Below, in pieces: positions 35,670-44,793 of a stretch of DNA of 64,000 nt. The stretch comes from Tepidimonas sediminis (GTDB taxonomy: Bacteria; Pseudomonadota; Gammaproteobacteria; Burkholderiales; Burkholderiaceae_C): assembly GCF_007556605.1 (NCBI RefSeq), contig NZ_VJND01000003.1, positions 186,001 through 250,000 of the forward strand, read 5' to 3'. Both the position numbers and the translations under genes were made by a program. Below the pieces are notes generated by a model, which saw nothing but the letters and a program-made list of their open reading frames with translations, did not search any database and was not told the origin of the DNA. Each line of letters opens with the position of its first letter. The first letter of the stretch is position 1.

Positions 35670-35704
35670 ATGACGCCACCCCTGCGGGTGGCGTCATGCT
35701 TTTT
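35670..35704 (+). terminator. Terminator of the tRNA operon
   Basis: Perfect 12-bp stem ATGACGCCACCC / GGGTGGCGTCAT with a CTGC loop, then GC and TTTTT. It lies six bases after the last CCA and faces the convergent gene at 35807, leaving about 100 bases with nothing else visible. Confidence 0.95.
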
Positions 35705-37221: not shown

Positions 37222-40200
37222 TCAAGCGGATGCAGGCACGGCCACACCGTGTGCCTCGACGAAAGTCACCAGTTCGTCCCACGGCATCGGGCGCGCGAAA
37301 CGGAAGCCCTGCACGTCCAGCGGCGCGTGCGGCGCCAGGAACGCCAGCTGCGCGTCCGTCTCCACGCCTTCGACCACCACGCGCGCGTGCAGCGCGGCGG
37401 CCAGCTCCAGCACCGCGGTGACGATGCGCTCGCTCGGGCCGCCGGTGCCGACGTGGTCGGTGAAGCGCTTGTCCACCTTGAGCTCGTCCACCGGCGTGCG
37501 CAGCAGGTAGGCCAGACTCGAGTAGCCGGTGCCGAAGTCGTCCAGCGCGACGTGGCCGCCGCCCTCGCGCACGCGCTGCAGCCAGGCCAGCGTCGAGGGG
37601 CTGTCGGCCATCCACACCGACTCGGTGACCTCGATGGTGAGGTTGGGCAGCGCGGCGCGGTGCTCCTCCAGCCAGTCGCGCAACGAGGCGTCGCCGAACT
37701 GCGCGCTGGAGACGTTGACCGCCAGCCGCATGCCGTGGCCCCAGCGGCGCGCGACCTCCAGCGCGCGCCGCGCCGCCTCGCGCAGTACCCACGCGCCGAT
37801 GCGGCGGATCTGGCCGCTGGCCTCGGCCACGCCGATGAACTCCACCGGCGAGACCAGGCCGCGCGTCGGGTGGCGCCAGCGCAGCAACACCTCGGCGGCG
37901 CGCACGCGCTCGCCGGGCAGGGTGACGATGGGCTGGAAATGCAGCTCGAAGGCGCCGTCGGCCAGCGCCTGCTCCAGCCCGGCCTTGATGTCGGCCAGGT
38001 GACGCGCGCGGCTTTCCATCTGCGGCGAGTAGAAGCGCATGCGGTCGCGCCCGCTGTTCTTGGCGGCGTACATCGCGGTGTCGGCCATGCGCAGCAGCTC
38101 CTCGGCCGTCTCGCCGTCGCTCGGGTAATTGGCCACGCCGATGCTGGCGCTCAGGCGCAACACGTTGCCGTGCAGGTCCAGCGGCTGGCGCACGGTCTGC
38201 AGGATGCCGTCGGCGATGCGCTCCACCACCAGCGGCGACTGCGGGCCGTCGAGCAGCACGACGAACTCGTCGCCGCCGAAGCGGGCCACGGTGTCGTTGG
38301 GGCGCAGCGCGCGGCGAAGGCGGCCGGCGATCTCCACCAGCACCTCGTCGCCCAGCTCGTGGCCGTGGACGTCGTTGATGTCCTTGAAGCCGTCCAGGTC
38401 GCAGAACATCACGTACAGCGGCCGCAGCTCGCGCTGCGCGCGCAGCAGCGCCTGCTCCAGGCGGTCGCGGTACAGCGCGCGGTTGGGCAGGCCGGTCAGG
38501 GCGTCGAAGTTGGCCTGGCGGAAGATGGTCTGCTCGCGCGCCTTGGCCTCGTCGATGTTTTCCAGCAGCAGCACGACCAGATCGCCCAGCGGCTCCGGAT
38601 GCCGTGCCAGCGAGGCGTGCTGGCGCGCCCAGCGCAGCGCCCCGTCGCGCGCCAGCAGCCGCTGCTCCAGCGGCGGCGACGGCCGTCCGCTGCCCAAGGC
38701 GCGCCAGTGCGTGCGCGCGGCCTGGCGGTCGTCAGGGTGGAGCCAGTCCAGCCAGGCCGAGCCGTGCAGCTCCTCGGCGGTGGCGGCCAGCCGGCCGGCC
38801 AGCGCGGCGTTGGCTTCCAGCACGGTGCCGTCGGGGGCGCACACCGCAATGCCCACGCTCGGGTTGTCCCACACCGCCTGCAGGCGCGCGTGCACGCCGC
38901 GCTCGCGCTGCTCCAGCTCCACCAGCTCGGTGACGTCCAGCAGCGAGGCGGCGATCAGGCGCCGCCCGTCGCCGCCGGGGCTGACGCGCGCGGCGCGCTC
39001 CTGCACGTGCCGCGAGCCGCCCTCGGGGGTGCGCAGGCGGTAGCGCTGCGTCCACTGGTCGCTGCGCTCGTCGTGCCAGCGTGCCTGCACGCGCCCCTGG
39101 TCAGCCGGGTCGATGGCATCGAGGAGCCAGCCCAGTGGGGCCTGGCCATCTTCGCCTGCCGGCTGCGCCAGCCACTCCTCCAGCCGACGCGAGGCATAGA
39201 CCACCCGGCTGCGCAGCACGTCCAGCAGCACCACGCCCTCGTGCAGCGCGTCGGTGAGCGCCGACAGGCGCGCCTGCAGCTCCAGCCGCGCCTCCTCGGC
39301 CCGACGCAGCGCGGTCAGGTCGGTCAGCGCCACCACGTAACCGGTGCGATCGTCGTGCGTGTGCCACGGCACCAGCTGCACCCACAGGCGTGCCCCGGGC
39401 AGTTCCACGCCGCCCTGCCACGGGCCGGCCGCCCCGCGCACCACGTGCTCCACCAGCCCGGCCGGCCAGGCGAAGCGACGCGCATCGAACGTCCACGGCA
39501 GCCCCAGCATCGTCTCGCGCAGGGCCAGCAGCTCGGCGGCCTGCTGGTTGAAGCGCAGCAGGCGCCGTTCGTGATCGAGCACCAGCAGCGCGGTGCCGGC
39601 GCTTTCCTGCACCGCGTGCAGCAGGTCGTTGAGCTGCTGCTGCTCGCGCAGCGAGCGGTCCAGCTCCTCGTTGAGCGTGCGCAACTCTTCGTTGGAGGCC
39701 TCCAGCTCCTCGTTGGACGCCTCCAGTTCCTCGTTGGCGGCCTCCAGTTCCTCGGTGGTGACGCTGAGGGCCTCGTTGAGCTGCTGCAGCTGGCGCTGGC
39801 TGCGCTCCAACGCATCGACGAAGCTCTCCAGCCGCTCCTGCTGCAGCCGCCGCTCGTCTTCGGGCGGCGCGTCGACCGCCTCGGGGGCGGCGGGTGCCGC
39901 CGCCGGCCGCGCCGCGGCGAAGCTCAGGACCACGAAGCGCTCACCACCGGCCTCCAGGCGCGCCCCCTCCAGCACCCGCGGCGGCTGGTCCGCCAGCGAC
40001 GGCAGCGGCACGCGCAGCGCCGCCTCGTCCTCGGTCAGCAAGCGGTGCAGCGCCAGCTGCACGTCGCGCCGCCAGGCCGGGGCGACGAGGTTGGGCAGCG
40101 TAAGCTCCACGGTGGGGCCAGCCGGCCAGTGCATCAACCCCTCCATGGAACCCACGACGTGCAGGGGGTGGCCGTCGCGATCCAGCAGCACGGTCGGTGG

Positions 40201-41814
40201 GGCGTGACGCTCGATCAGGTGTTGCAGCAGCCGGTCGCGCAAATCGTGCTCGAGCCGGTCCACCGGCCGCAGCTGCGGCACGGGCGGCGGCGCCAGTGCC
40301 GTGTCCGCCGGCCGTGCGCCCCGCTGGCGCCGCGCCGGCAGCTTCAGCGCGGGTTCGCCGGCGTCCGGGCGCTTGCGCCAGAGGTGCTCCTGCGTCGACA
40401 CGGGCGCGAACAGCGTGCGCGTGCGCGCCGTCAGTGCCTCGGAGCGGCCCAGCATCAGCAGCCCGTCGGGCAGCAACGCGTGGTAGAGCCGCCGCAGCAC
40501 CTCGTCCTTGGCCGCGCCCTTGAGGTAGATCAGCACGTTGCGGCACGCCACCAGGTCCATGCGCAGGAACGGCAGGTCCTGCAGCGCGTCGTGGCGCGCG
40601 AACACGCAGCGCCGGCGCAGTTCCTGCTGCACGCGCAGCGTGTGCCCGATGCGGGTGAAGTGGCGCTCGCGCCACGCCGGCGGCAGCGTCTGCGCGCTGT
40701 CCTCGTCGAACAGACCGCTGCGCGCCTGATCCAGCGCCGGCGTGCTGACGTCGGTGCCCAGCACCATCCAGTCCAGTGTCAGGCCGAGCTCGCGCAGCAG
40801 GTCGTCGGTCAGCATCGCCAGGCCGTAGACCTCCTCGCCGGTGGAGCAGCCCACCGACCACAGCCGCAGGCTGGCGGCGCCTTCGGCAGCGCGGCGCTGG
40901 ATGCGCTCGCGCCAGGCGATGCGCAGCGCCGCGAACGCGCTCGGGTTGCGCAGCCACTCGGTCACGCCAATGGTGACCGACTGCGCCAGCGCGTGCAGCA
41001 ACTGGGGGTCGCGCTCGGTGGCGGCCAGCAGCTGCGCCAGACTGGTGGCGCCCTGCTGGCGCATCACGCGCTCGAACTGCCGCCGCAGCGTCGCCTCCTG
41101 ATATTGGCCCAGCTCCAGGCCGGTGCTGCTGGCGAGGCGCTGCAGCAACGCCCCGAAGGCGGCACGTTCGTCGGCCAAGGTGCCGGTGGCGGGGGTAGAC
41201 GGCTGGCTGCGCGGATTCAGCAACGCCGCCAGCCGCCGCCCCAGCGCCACCGCGGTGTCGACGTGGTCGGCCAGGCCACGCTCGACGATGGCCTGCGGCA
41301 TCGACGCAAACGGCGCCTCCGAGGGGGCCTCGGCCCACACCGCGCCACCGGCGTCGCGCACCACCCGCGCGCCCACGGCCCCGTCCTGGCCGGTGCCGGA
41401 CAGCACGATGGCCATCGCGCGTGGCCCGAGTGCACGCGCCGCGCTGGCGAACAGCCGGTCCAGCGAGGGCGCCGGTCCTTGGCCCGGGACGCTCGGGTAC
41501 AGGCGCAGCCGCTGGCCCTCGATCTCGACATGGTGCCCCGGTGGCGTCACGTGGATCACGCCGCCGCGCAACGGGGCACCGTCGGTGACCTGTTCCACCG
41601 GCACGCCGGTGACGGTCTGCAGCAGGCGCGTCAGCGCCGACGCTTCGGTGGCGGCGATGTGCTGCGCCACCACGCAGGCAAGGCGCGCGTCGCGTGGCAC
41701 GGCCGCCAGCAGTTCGCGCAGCGGCTCCAGCCCGCCGGCCGAGGCGCCGAGCAAAGCCACCAGCTGGGGGTGGAGGGCGGGGTTCACCTTGGACGTCCTT
41801 GTCGATTGGGCCAT
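37222..41814 (-). CDS. CheB-CheR-PAS-GGDEF-EAL signalling protein
   Basis: A 1530-residue cytoplasmic fusion. Residues 15-200: CheB methylesterase without receiver domain, triad S25 (GASAGG), H52 (AQHIA), D144 (GTGQDGA). About 210-480: CheR methyltransferase ([20 protein letters not shown]). About 655-725: a coiled coil of E-E-L-x-A-x-N repeats. Then PAS domains to about 1090. GGDEF at 1180-1184 (RFGGDEF) is intact, so a diguanylate cyclase is possible. The EAL-type domain reads EVL at 1308 (AEVLLRW), keeping the catalytic glutamate, with [13 protein letters not shown] and VEGVET present. It probably couples methylation-type sensing to c-di-GMP turnover; output direction is unknown. No membrane segment or sensor helix is visible. 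Confidence 0.93.
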
Positions 41815-41841: not shown

Positions 41842-42897
41842 ATGTTGTTGCTGGGCATCGAGTCGTCGTGCGACGAGACCGGGGTGGCGCTGGTGCATGC
41901 CGAGCGCGACGGTGTGCCGCGGCTGCTGGGGGCGGCGCTGCACAGCCAGGTCGCGATGCACCGCGACTACGGCGGTGTGGTGCCGGAGCTGGCCAGCCGC
42001 GACCACATCCGCCGTCTGCTGCCGCTGCTGCGCGAGGCGCTGGCGCAGGCCGGCGTGGCGCTGCACGAGGTGCAGGCGGTGGCCTACACGCGCGGCCCCG
42101 GGCTGGCGGGGGCGCTGCTCGTGGGCGCGGGGCTGGCCACGGCGCTGGCCTGCGCGCTGGGCGTGCCCGCGCTGGGCGTGCACCATCTGGAAGGGCACCT
42201 GCTGTCGCCCTTTCTCAGCGCCGACCCCCCGGCGTTTCCGTTCGTCGCGCTGCTGGTCTCGGGCGGGCACACGCAGCTGATGCGCGTCGACGGCGTCGGG
42301 CGCTACGCGCTGCTCGGCGAGACCATCGACGACGCCGCCGGCGAAGCGTTCGACAAGTCGGCCAAGCTGCTGGGGCTGGGGTATCCGGGCGGGCCGGCGC
42401 TGGCGCGGCTGGCCGAGCAGGGCGATGCGGCGGCCTTCGCGCTGCCGCGGCCGCTCATGCACAGCGGCGACCTGGACTTCTCGTTCGCCGGCCTCAAGAC
42501 CGCGGTGCTGACGCAGGTGCGCCGGCTCGGGGCCGAGCTGGAGGCGCGCAAGGCCGACCTGGCCGCCGCCACCCAGGCTGCCATCGTCGACGTGCTCGTG
42601 CACAAGGCGCTGGCGGCCCTGCGCGCCACCGGGCTGAAGCGGCTGGTGGTGGCCGGCGGCGTCGGGGCCAACCGTCGCCTGCGCGCGCAGCTGGACGAGG
42701 CGTGCGCACGCCACGGCTGGCGCGTGCACTACCCCGAGCCGGCGCTGTGCACCGACAACGGCGCGATGATCGCGCTGGCGGCGGCGATGCGCTGGCAGGC
42801 CGGGGGCTGGCCGCCGCAGGGCGAGGGGCTGGCCTTCGACGTGCGGCCGCGCTGGCCGCTGGAGGAAGTGGCGCTGCCGGTGGCGGCAGGGGGCTGA
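41842..42897 (+). CDS. tsaD: tRNA N6-adenosine threonylcarbamoyltransferase
   Basis: Catalytic subunit that transfers the threonylcarbamoyl group to A37 of ANN-decoding tRNAs, acting with TsaB and TsaE (not in this window). The 351-residue product is full length: [13 protein letters not shown] at the start, the metal histidines in HLEGH at 115-119, [27 protein letters not shown] and [13 protein letters not shown], and the last metal ligand in CTDNGAMIA. The start is 28 bases from the divergent CheB-CheR gene. Confidence 0.97.
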
Positions 42898-42997
42898 GCG
42901 GTGTGGCCGTGCGGGAGGGGCCAGCGGAGGTCGCCGCTCGATGCGGGGGCCATGGCGGTCTGCGTCCGCGGCAACCGCTTTGTACGGTGGGGTGTAC

Positions 42998-43024
42998 GCT
43001 GTCGTAATTATGAATTACGACAGC
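42998..43024. promoter_or_regulatory. Perfect 12-bp inverted repeat, candidate operator
   Basis: GCTGTCGTAATT (42998-43009), ATG, then AATTACGACAGC (43013-43024): two perfect 12-base arms with a three-base centre. Directly downstream is TACAAT (43027-43032), a good -10, so the palindrome covers the -35 region (which reads GTAATT, poor). This is a typical place for a dimeric regulator. There is no T-run, so it is not a terminator. The region is AT-rich compared with its surroundings. Confidence 0.75.
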
Positions 43025-43068
43025 GCTACAATGTCGGCCATCGCGATTCCGATGACGATGGAGCAGGC

Positions 43069-44430
43069 ATGACCCGACCCACCTTCGATCCCTGTCCTTC
43101 CCCTTCCCGGCGCAGTGCGCTGCTCCGCCTGCTGGGCGGGGCGGCCGCGCTGGCGCTGCCCCCCATGGCGGTGCGGGCGCGTGGCGCCGCGCCGGTGCGC
43201 GTGGCGCTGATCGAGGCGCTGTCGGGCCCGGTCGGCAACGCCGGCGAGGCGGTGTTGCGCAACCTGGTCTGGGCGTGCGAGCGCGTCAATGCGCGCGGCG
43301 GCGTGGACATGGGCGGCGAGGTGCGCCGGCCGCTGCAGATCGTGCGCTTCGACAGCAAGGGCCAGCCGCAGGAGGCGCTCTCGGCGCTGCAGTCGGCGCT
43401 GGATGACGGCATCACCGTGGTCGCGCAGGGCAACTCCTCGGCCGTGGCGGCGGCGCTGATCGAGGCGATCAACCGCCACAACGAGCGCGAGCCGCAGCGC
43501 CAGGTGGTGTTCCTGAACTACTCGGCAGTCGACCCGGTGTTGACCAATGAGCGCTGCAGCTTCTGGCACTTCCGCTTCGACGCGCACGCCGACATGCGCA
43601 TGGCCGCGCTCATGGAAGTGCTGCGGCAGGACGCAGGGGTCAAGAGCGTCTACCTGATCGGGCAGGACTACAGCTTCGGCCAGGCCGTGCTGCGCGAGGC
43701 ACGCCGCCAGCTGGCGCTGCAGCGCCCGGACGTGCGCATCGCCGGCGAAGAGCTGCATCCGCTGGCGCGCATCAAGGACTTCATCCCGTACGTGACCAAG
43801 ATCAAGGCCAGCGGCGCGCAGGCCGTCATCACCGGCAACTGGGGCAACGACCTGACGCTGCTGGTGCGTGCCGCCCGCGAGCTGGGCTACGAGGGCAAGT
43901 TCTACACGTTCTATGGCAACGCGCTGGGGGCGCCGGCGGCGATCGGCGAGGCCGGCGTCGGCAAGGTGATCGCGGTGGCGGACTGGTTCCCCAACGCCCC
44001 GGGGGAAGCATCGCGCCGGCTGGTGGAGGCGTTCCGCCAGCGCTTCCCGAATCCGGCCGAAGACTACATCCACCTGCGCATGCAGCTGATGATCGAGGCG
44101 CTGGCGCAGGCGCTGACGCGCGCCGCGCGCGCGGCCGGCACCGGCGGGCCGGGCGGACTCCCGCCGGCGGTGGCGCTGGCGCGCGCGCTGGAGCAGGCCG
44201 ACGTGACGCTGGCGGGGCAGCGGCTGCGCATGCGCGCCGAGGACCACCAGGCGCAGCAACCGCTGATGGTGGCCGTGATGGAGCGTCAGGGTGCGCCGGG
44301 CGTGCCATTCGATGTCGAGGGCTCGGGCTACGGCTTTCGGGTGCTGCAGCGCATCGAGGCCGCCGCGGCCGAGCAGCCGCACACCTGCCGCATGGTGCGC
44401 CCGGACGCCACCGCGCCGGCCCCGGTATAA
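43069..44430 (+). CDS. ABC transporter substrate-binding protein (branched-chain amino acid/amide type), Tat signal
   Basis: Periplasmic binding protein of the LivJ-like family, 453 residues. The N-terminus carries a twin-arginine type signal, S-R-R-S-A-L-L-R-L-L-G-G followed by a hydrophobic Ala/Leu run and a likely cleavage after VRARGA. The mature part has the family fold: VALIEALSGPVGNAG, then GITVVAQGNSSAVAAAL, YLIGQDYSFGQAVL and GAQAVITGNWGNDL. No permease or ATPase genes are adjacent, so it is an orphan in this window. GGAGCAGGC precedes ATG 43069. It is followed by rpsO, whose -10 overlaps its stop codon. The ligand is unknown. Confidence 0.88.
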   Translation: MTRPTFDPCPSPSRRSALLRLLGGAAALALPPMAVRARGAAPVRVALIEALSGPVGNAGEAVLRNLVWACERVNARGGVDMGGEVRRPLQIVRFDSKGQPQEALSALQSALDDGITVVAQGNSSAVAAALIEAINRHNEREPQRQVVFLNYSAVDPVLTNERCSFWHFRFDAHADMRMAALMEVLRQDAGVKSVYLIGQDYSFGQAVLREARRQLALQRPDVRIAGEELHPLARIKDFIPYVTKIKASGAQAVITGNWGNDLTLLVRAARELGYEGKFYTFYGNALGAPAAIGEAGVGKVIAVADWFPNAPGEASRRLVEAFRQRFPNPAEDYIHLRMQLMIEALAQALTRAARAAGTGGPGGLPPAVALARALEQADVTLAGQRLRMRAEDHQAQQPLMVAVMERQGAPGVPFDVEGSGYGFRVLQRIEAAAAEQPHTCRMVRPDATAPAPV

Positions 44431-44490
44431 TCGCGGACCTCCCGCATGGTGCGGGATGCACGCGGGCACGTGGCCGGACAGGCAGTCCGG
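44426..44490 (+). promoter_or_regulatory. rpsO promoter -10 and structured leader
   Basis: TATAAT at 44426-44431 overlaps the TAA stop of the preceding gene; the -35 is weak. The leader, about 90 bases, contains two hairpins, CCCGCA/TGCGGG (44441-44455) and CCGGAC/GTCCGG (44474-44490), and then GGAG before ATG 44527. Structured rpsO leaders often bind S15 for feedback control; that this one does is inference. Confidence 0.55.
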
Positions 44491-44526
44491 CTGCCGCCCG
44501 TCGCAAGTTTTTCCGGAGTCGTTTTC

Positions 44527-44793
44527 ATGATCACATCCGACATCAAGGCCAAGGTCGTCGCCGAGCATGCGCGCGGCGAGCGTGACACCGGCAGCCCCGA
44601 GGTGCAGGTGGCGCTGCTGACGGCGCGCATCAACGACCTCACCCCGCACTTCAAGGCGCATCCCAAGGACCACCACGGCCGCCGCGGGCTGCTCAAGCTG
44701 GTCAGCCGCCGGCGCAAGCTGCTGGACTACCTCAAGGCCAAGGACGCCGACCGCTACGTCGCGCTGATCAAGAAGCTCGGCCTGCGCAAGTGA
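44527..44793 (+). CDS. rpsO: 30S ribosomal protein S15
   Basis: Small-subunit protein that binds 16S rRNA early in assembly, 88 residues, the usual size. Family features: [36 protein letters not shown] and [13 protein letters not shown]. It is followed by pnp after 220 bases, the widespread rpsO-pnp pairing. Confidence 0.98.

Follow-up and report, generated by a model that had tools for sequence, protein, structure and literature searches.

The promoter region of an orphan substrate-binding protein gene in Tepidimonas sediminis contains a 13-bp palindromic core that is identical in all 11 Tepidimonas genomes compared and recurs, exactly or in variants, at the promoters of a GntR/FCD regulator (GntR-1) and of the methylmalonyl-CoA mutase genes. 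On comparison of these sequences, GntR-1, which is encoded on another contig (C1), is probably the protein that binds the core at the binding-protein gene. An earlier note on the same stretch of DNA (64,000 nucleotides, hereafter the window) had read a palindrome with 12-bp arms in front of the gene as the binding site of a protein encoded elsewhere, which might mark a regulon that includes the orphan gene. Its observation is right in substance and its interpretation right in outline, as regards an operator, a regulator elsewhere and a regulon, but wrong on the unit of the site: the feature is operator-like, yet the 13-bp core is what has been conserved and the long palindrome has not.

The inverted repeat and its conserved core

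The orphan gene encodes a member of the Peripla_BP_6 family (Table 1) with 4xfk as its best match in the PDB (E 1.7e-50). The protein is related by sequence to the periplasmic binding proteins of the Leu/Ile/Val type (PDB 4xfk, 1usg), while its gene differs from the systems of that type in having no adjoining permease gene (by eye). The best score against the NCBIfam models for branched-chain amino acid/urea binding proteins was 54.1 bits, far below the cut-off of 477. R14 R15, the twin-arginine pair, shows no variation among 8 aligned orthologues, and the predicted export by the Tat pathway is plausible. The neighbours of the gene, named by eye, are tsaD upstream and rpsO/pnp downstream, which agrees with the earlier statement that no regulator gene is adjacent. 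An SCDETG motif is found upstream of the gene in 64 of the best 80 of 462 relatives of the binding protein, and the distance between tsaD and the gene is unrelated to the presence of the site (median 123.5 both in the 12 cases with the site and in the 52 without it). Further upstream, at 37222-41814 on the minus strand of the window, a frame of 1530 aa looks by eye like a CheB/CheR-PAS-GGDEF-EAL fusion.

Table 1. Coordinates of the features discussed, in the window unless a contig is given
Feature	Position	Strand	Basis
tsaD-like gene, upstream neighbour	41842..42897	+	reading frame; start and name by eye
Perfect inverted repeat, 13-bp arms and 3-nt centre	42997..43025	.	sequence; long form strain-specific
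Core TAATTATGAATTA, predicted GntR/FCD operator	43005..43017	+	genus conservation; same core at GntR promoters
Predicted -10 hexamer TACAAT	43027..43032	+	sequence; TACAAT or TAGAAT 3' of the core in 11/11 genus promoters
Orphan substrate-binding protein gene, 453 aa, Peripla_BP_6, twin-arginine N-terminus, predicted operator target	43069..44430	+	Pfam PF13458, E 9.9e-72
rpsO-like gene (ribosomal protein S15), downstream neighbour	44527..44793	+	reading frame; name by eye
GntR-1, FadR-subfamily GntR (FCD) regulator	C1:392510-393154, own genome		GntR and FCD domains

The inverted repeat reads CGCTGTCGTAATT-ATG-AATTACGACAGCG. It is perfect and has a three-base centre as first described, but its arms measure 13 and not 12 bp, and a single base, instead of three, separates it from the TACAAT, with the gene starting 36 bases past this hexamer. 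When the TACAAT is taken as the -10, the repeat spans about -42 to -14, with its centre at about -28, and it does cover the -35 region, together with the spacer. A repeat with arms of at least 13 bp and a loop of 0-8 occurs once in the window, compared to a single occurrence in all of 40 first-order Markov simulations of 64 kb (mean 0.025). For arms of at least 12 bp, the window gives 4 counts at 3 places versus 0.25 in the simulations, which means that the Markov null underestimates palindromes in this window and that the repeat is therefore less surprising than it looks. The claim that a chance match is very unlikely thus keeps its low expected number, but loses part of its force to a null that is too strict for arms of this length. 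The conservation of the core throughout the genus is stronger evidence than these palindrome statistics. Two further inverted repeats with 12-bp arms lie at 35670 (loop 4) and 49355 (loop 3) of the window.

For the comparison of promoters, a protein search that made no use of the core identified the binding-protein gene in the 11 Tepidimonas genomes, and the upstream sequences were compared. A pattern search with TAATTATGAATTA hit each genome exactly once without mismatch, each time in front of the binding-protein gene (11/11), and also returned two copies with one mismatch, both at the mutase gene. The outer arms of the repeat show no conservation in the genus, and the long form belongs to the strain from which the window is taken. 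This accounts for the outcome of the palindrome scan that the earlier note had advised as a means of finding the regulon and its regulator: the search with TGTCGTAATNNNNNATTACGACA (up to two mismatches) gave a single copy in the own genome and no regulator gene, since the outer arms are strain-specific. Across 60 genomes, matches were obtained in three, namely the own genome, G003 (at the same gene) and G049 (at another place). The regulator gene surfaced once the 13-bp core had been defined from orthologous promoters.

In a wider sample, the best 80 of 462 relatives of the binding protein, picked regardless of the site, form together with the 11-genome search the unbiased tests of conservation. 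The exact core stands upstream in 13 of these best 80 of 462 (Tepidimonas 1, Hydrogenophaga 9, other Comamonadaceae 3), and the remaining 67, which include 4 Hydrogenophaga, reach at most 9/13 matches; the reversed core, used as a control on the same best 80 of 462, reaches at most 10/13, in 3/80. A relative thus has either the whole core at this gene or nothing better than the control. Locus L163 in this material is the same contig as that of Tepidimonas genome G007 (L050). Among 25 distinct promoters, the flanks of the core are weakly conserved, save for a preferred G directly before it (20/25, otherwise A), and the -10-like bases after the core are also kept; the rows of this comparison were picked by the exact core, so that the invariance of the core is there by construction and the flanks alone are informative. 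Locus L202, from a member of the Comamonadaceae, was left out of the column counts. One of the 13 relatives with the exact core, it carries this sequence on the opposite strand, and the orientation of the core is thus not fixed.

The position of the core relative to the -10-like hexamers falls into a small number of registers. Its centre is at -27/-28 in 3/11 and at -36/-37 in 8/11 genus promoters, at -17 in 14/14 Hydrogenophaga-type promoters, where the first two bases of the -10 hexamer also belong to the core, so that the hexamer's score of 4 or 5 of 6 is to some extent a given, and at -26 in 7/8 promoters of a second GntR gene type, GntR-3, described below. The promoter L060, from genus g138, has the same 72 bases as L232 (H. 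taeniospiralis); g138 is taken as Hydrogenophaga for this reason, and L232 was left out of the Hydrogenophaga and GntR-3 spacing count as the same promoter stretch. One genus promoter (L046) has a TATCAT in the -17 register besides its TACAAT at -36. The centres thus all fall within the promoter core and differ from group to group by roughly whole helical turns, as would fit a repressor acting from one face of the DNA. This series of whole-turn spacings amounts to a natural experiment on the placement of a repressor within a promoter.

GntR-1 and the methylmalonyl-CoA genes

In the genus, the matches to the core concentrate at two places, the binding-protein gene and the GntR-1/mutase region, and this argues for GntR-1 as the binder. 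With up to two mismatches, the 11 genus genomes contain 24 matches, of which 11 are at the binding-protein gene, 10 at GntR-1/mutase (in 8 genomes) and 3 elsewhere, compared to 10 matches for the reversed core. The own genome is outside the 10 GntR-1/mutase matches, as both of its copies there are at 10/13 (3 mismatches). Among 349 genomes of the family, all 22 exact matches are at the binding-protein gene or at a GntR gene: 9 in binding-protein promoters (5 of the genus, 4 Hydrogenophaga-type), 5 at GntR-1/mutase and 8 in GntR-3 promoters. The reversed core has 5 exact matches in the same genomes.

A degenerate form, TAATTATKNATNM, has 28 perfect matches in the genus, 11 at the binding-protein gene and 17 at GntR-1/mutase, where they are circular since the form was derived from the GntR-1 operators, so that only the absence of other perfect hits counts. 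Three of the perfect matches are in the own genome, namely the site at 43005-43017 and two overlapping copies at C1:392459-392478. At one mismatch, 28 more genus matches appear, 4 of them at these promoters in G007 and 24 elsewhere; the reversed TAATTATKNATNM gives 40 matches at up to one mismatch. The regulon may therefore be very small, as the own genome has the unmismatched core or degenerate form at two places, the binding-protein promoter and the GntR-1/mutase intergenic region. The three genus matches with two mismatches outside both promoters were found in G000:C35, G005:C78 and G006:C82. The first (G000:C35:81718, L155, own genome) is intergenic and adjoins a terminator-like inverted repeat near a TTATGAATGA stretch; by eye, the second is apparently within a coding frame and the third lies before a LysR-like start.

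GntR-1 is assigned by its domain content. The FCD domain of the own-genome protein was detected at C1:392756-393133 (E 1.1e-27), and both PF00392 and PF07729 are present in the GntR-1 orthologue of L051. In the own genome, the mutase operon is divergent from GntR-1, with two overlapping weaker variants of the core (10/13) in between. The genes on the mutase side encode, by Pfam, MM_CoA_mutase with B12-binding, MeaB, Carboxyl_trans, a biotin carboxylase with PCC_BT, and Glyoxalase_4; the methylmalonyl-CoA pathway set (mutase, MeaB, propionyl-CoA carboxylase subunits, epimerase-like protein) is complete, and to judge from their position these genes form one operon. The genus operator at GntR-1/mutase approximates GCATnnATAATTATnnATGC, a 20-bp even palindrome made of two head-to-head core variants that share TAATTA; L117 and L118 were left out of the upstream comparison of nine mutase loci. 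In G007, the mutase and GntR-1 are on separate contigs and each keeps its own copy of the core (12 and 11 of 13), which also favours GntR-1 as the binder.

The core accompanies GntR-1 beyond the genus. The best core match upstream of 23/23 GntR-1 orthologues, obtained by protein search from several genera and families, is 10-12/13 (11-12/13 in 21 of them), in a set in which L070, the query's own locus, was first found via the core and the match of L087 is far upstream and doubtful. Furthermore, 4/4 Hydrogenophaga-type genomes with the core in front of the binding-protein gene also encode GntR-1, each with 12/13 upstream of the regulator. Conversely, many genomes with GntR-1 have no site at the binding-protein gene, including 4/13 Hydrogenophaga among the best 80 of 462 relatives.

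Within the genus, the mutase was found in the same 9/11 genomes as GntR-1. Neither was found in G003 (73% complete) or G005 (95% complete), both of which keep the site, and this weakens the case for GntR-1 as the binder. By eye, a dusA-like gene adjoins GntR-1 in all 9 genus genomes that have the regulator; in G003 no more than about 90 bases separate this gene from a contig end, on the side where GntR-1 would be expected, and for G005 the search yielded no dusA-like gene, GntR-1, mutase or any FCD protein. The absences are likely assembly gaps, which is the simplest reading, although it is weakest for G005, where the other possibility is a real deletion of the block.

The residues of GntR-1 that would face the operator were compared with published residue-to-base correlations. 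The core, TAATT-ATG-AATTA, is an odd-length palindrome with a 3-nt centre, and it lacks the TKGT/ACMA boxes spaced 2 or 3 nt apart that are usual for the FadR subfamily (PMC4494728); aligned by eye, A/T replaces GT/AC in register. At this box, G/C goes along with Arg28 and Gly59 and is avoided in the presence of Pro40 (PMC4494728). FadR numbering was anchored on the SR-T-P-LRE motif of the recognition helix, and residues were counted in segments found without the core, with identical segments merged and false matches other than GntR left out; loci L053-L069 were selected by the exact core and are not counted for the association between residue and site. Position 28 of GntR-1 is Leu or Met in 17/18 distinct segments (Gln in L091), and Pro40 and Arg59 are present in 18/18. 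By these correlations, residues 28, 40 and 59 fit an A/T operator. Neither Pro40 nor Arg59 is confined to GntR-1, as both are seen in GntR paralogues whose motif matches are weak (L094, L096, L097), and two paralogues with Leu28 and Arg59, L099 and L135, do no better than 10/13. The residue evidence is thus consistent with the proposed operator and not specific to it. The pair of operator and residues (A/T for GT/AC; Leu or Met 28, Arg 59) lends itself to a direct test of the published GntR correlations.

GntR-3 is a second GntR/FCD type whose promoter likewise contains the exact core (L055, L062-L068, position 1501). The divergent gene at most of these loci looks by eye like a PAS-type regulator, and residues 28, 40 and 59 in the HTH of GntR-3 resemble those of GntR-1.

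Other readings of the site

The alternative that survives best is that another regulator binds the core at the binding-protein gene and that the GntR promoters merely share a similar DNA preference, which we regard as unlikely. The 8 family genomes with the exact core in front of the GntR-3 gene itself speak for it, as GntR-1 and GntR-3 seem to read similar DNA, and so does the exactness of the binding-protein site, whereas the genus GntR-1 sites are at 10-12/13; G005, with the site and without a detected GntR-1, points the same way. Set against this is the outcome of the protein search, in which a threshold of E <= 1e-25 gave exactly one GntR-1 hit in each genus genome having any (9/11). A survey of the FCD family in the genus is a second argument: the other FCD regulators (8 proteins in 6/11 genomes) have a core match upstream of merely 6-7/13 in 7 of the 8, L116 being left out since it has no open frame, and the lack of the core at these regulators favours GntR-1 itself. 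GntR-1 as the binder is weakened, in turn, by the GT/AC boxes missing from the core and by the different dyad axes, odd-length at the binding-protein gene versus even, with 20 bp, at the genus GntR-1/mutase.

Instead of a regulator-specific operator, the core could be an A+T-rich element of promoter or architectural type (UP-like, IHF-like or an unusual -35), but this appears very improbable. It is A+T-rich within a window of 70% G+C and overlaps the -35 or -10 region in nearly all promoters examined, as such an element would. However, all 13 positions, including the central ATG, are identical in 11/11 genus promoters, the core has dyad symmetry, its unmismatched copies in the genus are at two kinds of place only, and it is found at three different distances from the -10. 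The weakest reading, which sees in the inverted repeat an RNA hairpin or the terminator of tsaD, is hardly tenable: as RNA, the repeat of this strain does form a strong fold (-21.8 kcal/mol, z -4.4), and 4/5 other genus members folded have a shorter stem at the core, but the folds of these 5 (of 10) are ordinary for their composition (z between -2.0 and 0.4), the repeat has no T-run, 42500-44500 contains 0 terminator-like sites, and the repeat is upstream of the predicted transcript start of the binding-protein gene.

A small upstream ORF that starts from the central invariant ATG (MNY...) was considered and rejected, as its frame is not conserved beyond the ATG (by eye) and it is upstream of the predicted transcript start.

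A possible two-operator regulon and its relation to known systems

With GntR-1 as the binder, a dimer of the regulator would sit on the odd palindrome inside the promoter core and block RNA polymerase at the binding-protein promoter, and it would also block its own and the mutase promoters via the two overlapping head-to-head variants of the core. GntR-1 would come off the DNA in response to a pathway metabolite, such as propionyl-CoA, methylmalonyl-CoA, methylcitrate or an acid like these, and the binding protein would thus be made while substrates that yield propionyl-CoA are used. We tentatively extend this mechanism to a regulon of two operators in Tepidimonas and Hydrogenophaga-type genomes, in which a GntR/FCD sensor of propionyl-CoA/methylmalonyl-CoA controls both the methylmalonyl-CoA pathway and the orphan binding protein through a rigid 13-bp operator that keeps the same helical face (-17, -27, -37) despite whole-turn moves; we hold this wider proposal with less confidence than the identity of the binder. 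If true, the binding protein would capture, or report on, a substrate broken down to propionyl-CoA. The orphan protein would thereby gain a metabolic context in substrates yielding propionyl-CoA, and a candidate regulator, an operator and a second target can be named for the methylmalonyl-CoA pathway.

The proposed system resembles the operators of the FadR subfamily (PMC4494728): the regulator combines GntR and FCD domains, the operator is an A/T-rich palindrome with a 3-nt centre, and it lies in the divergent intergenic region between regulator and operon. Extra half-sites are reported for the subfamily at 7-12 nt from the site centre (PMC4494728), comparable to the 7 bp by which the overlapping copy at GntR-1 is shifted. 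The system departs from the subfamily in its core without TKGT/ACMA boxes, with residues 28 and 59 of GntR-1 differing accordingly. Such a departure has precedent, as the same source names BioR and NanR as other exceptions to the box consensus (PMC4494728).

PrpR (PA0797) of Pseudomonas aeruginosa is likewise a GntR-FCD regulator of propionyl-CoA disposal, and it is described as a repressor (PMC9765439). Repression, as opposed to activation, is likewise the presumed mode of GntR-1. PrpR differs in that it controls the 2-methylcitrate operon and not methylmalonyl-CoA mutase, and the available part of the source mentions no binding-protein target (PMC9765439). PccR of Rhodobacter is, like GntR-1 in our proposal, a dedicated regulator of the methylmalonyl-CoA pathway; it differs from GntR-1 in belonging to the ScfR family and in being reported as an activator (PMC10370305). 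GntR/FCD regulators of propionate metabolism and PccR are thus known, and GntR-1, its unusual operator and the pair of targets are apparently new. The open-access literature searched yielded no description of GntR control of methylmalonyl-CoA mutase in Burkholderiales, nor of the 13-mer core, GntR-1 and its target pair, a statement that extends to that literature and not to everything in print.

The Hydrogenophaga-type promoters share one further element. A sequence of the form TGTCGC-N4-G(C/T)GAC lies 11-14 bases after the core in 14/15 Hydrogenophaga-type rows (L057-L060, L169, L171, L175, L182, L183, L192, L197, L199, L205 and L232, with L060 equal to L232) and in 0/12 Tepidimonas rows. Among the 67 relatives without the core (from the best 80 of 462), it is found in one, 8 of these 67 rows being mis-cut. 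By the -10 assignment, it would start near +3, and the C-to-T changes on its 3' side keep G-U pairing, which points to a possible RNA stem-loop at the transcript's 5' end in Hydrogenophaga-type promoters.
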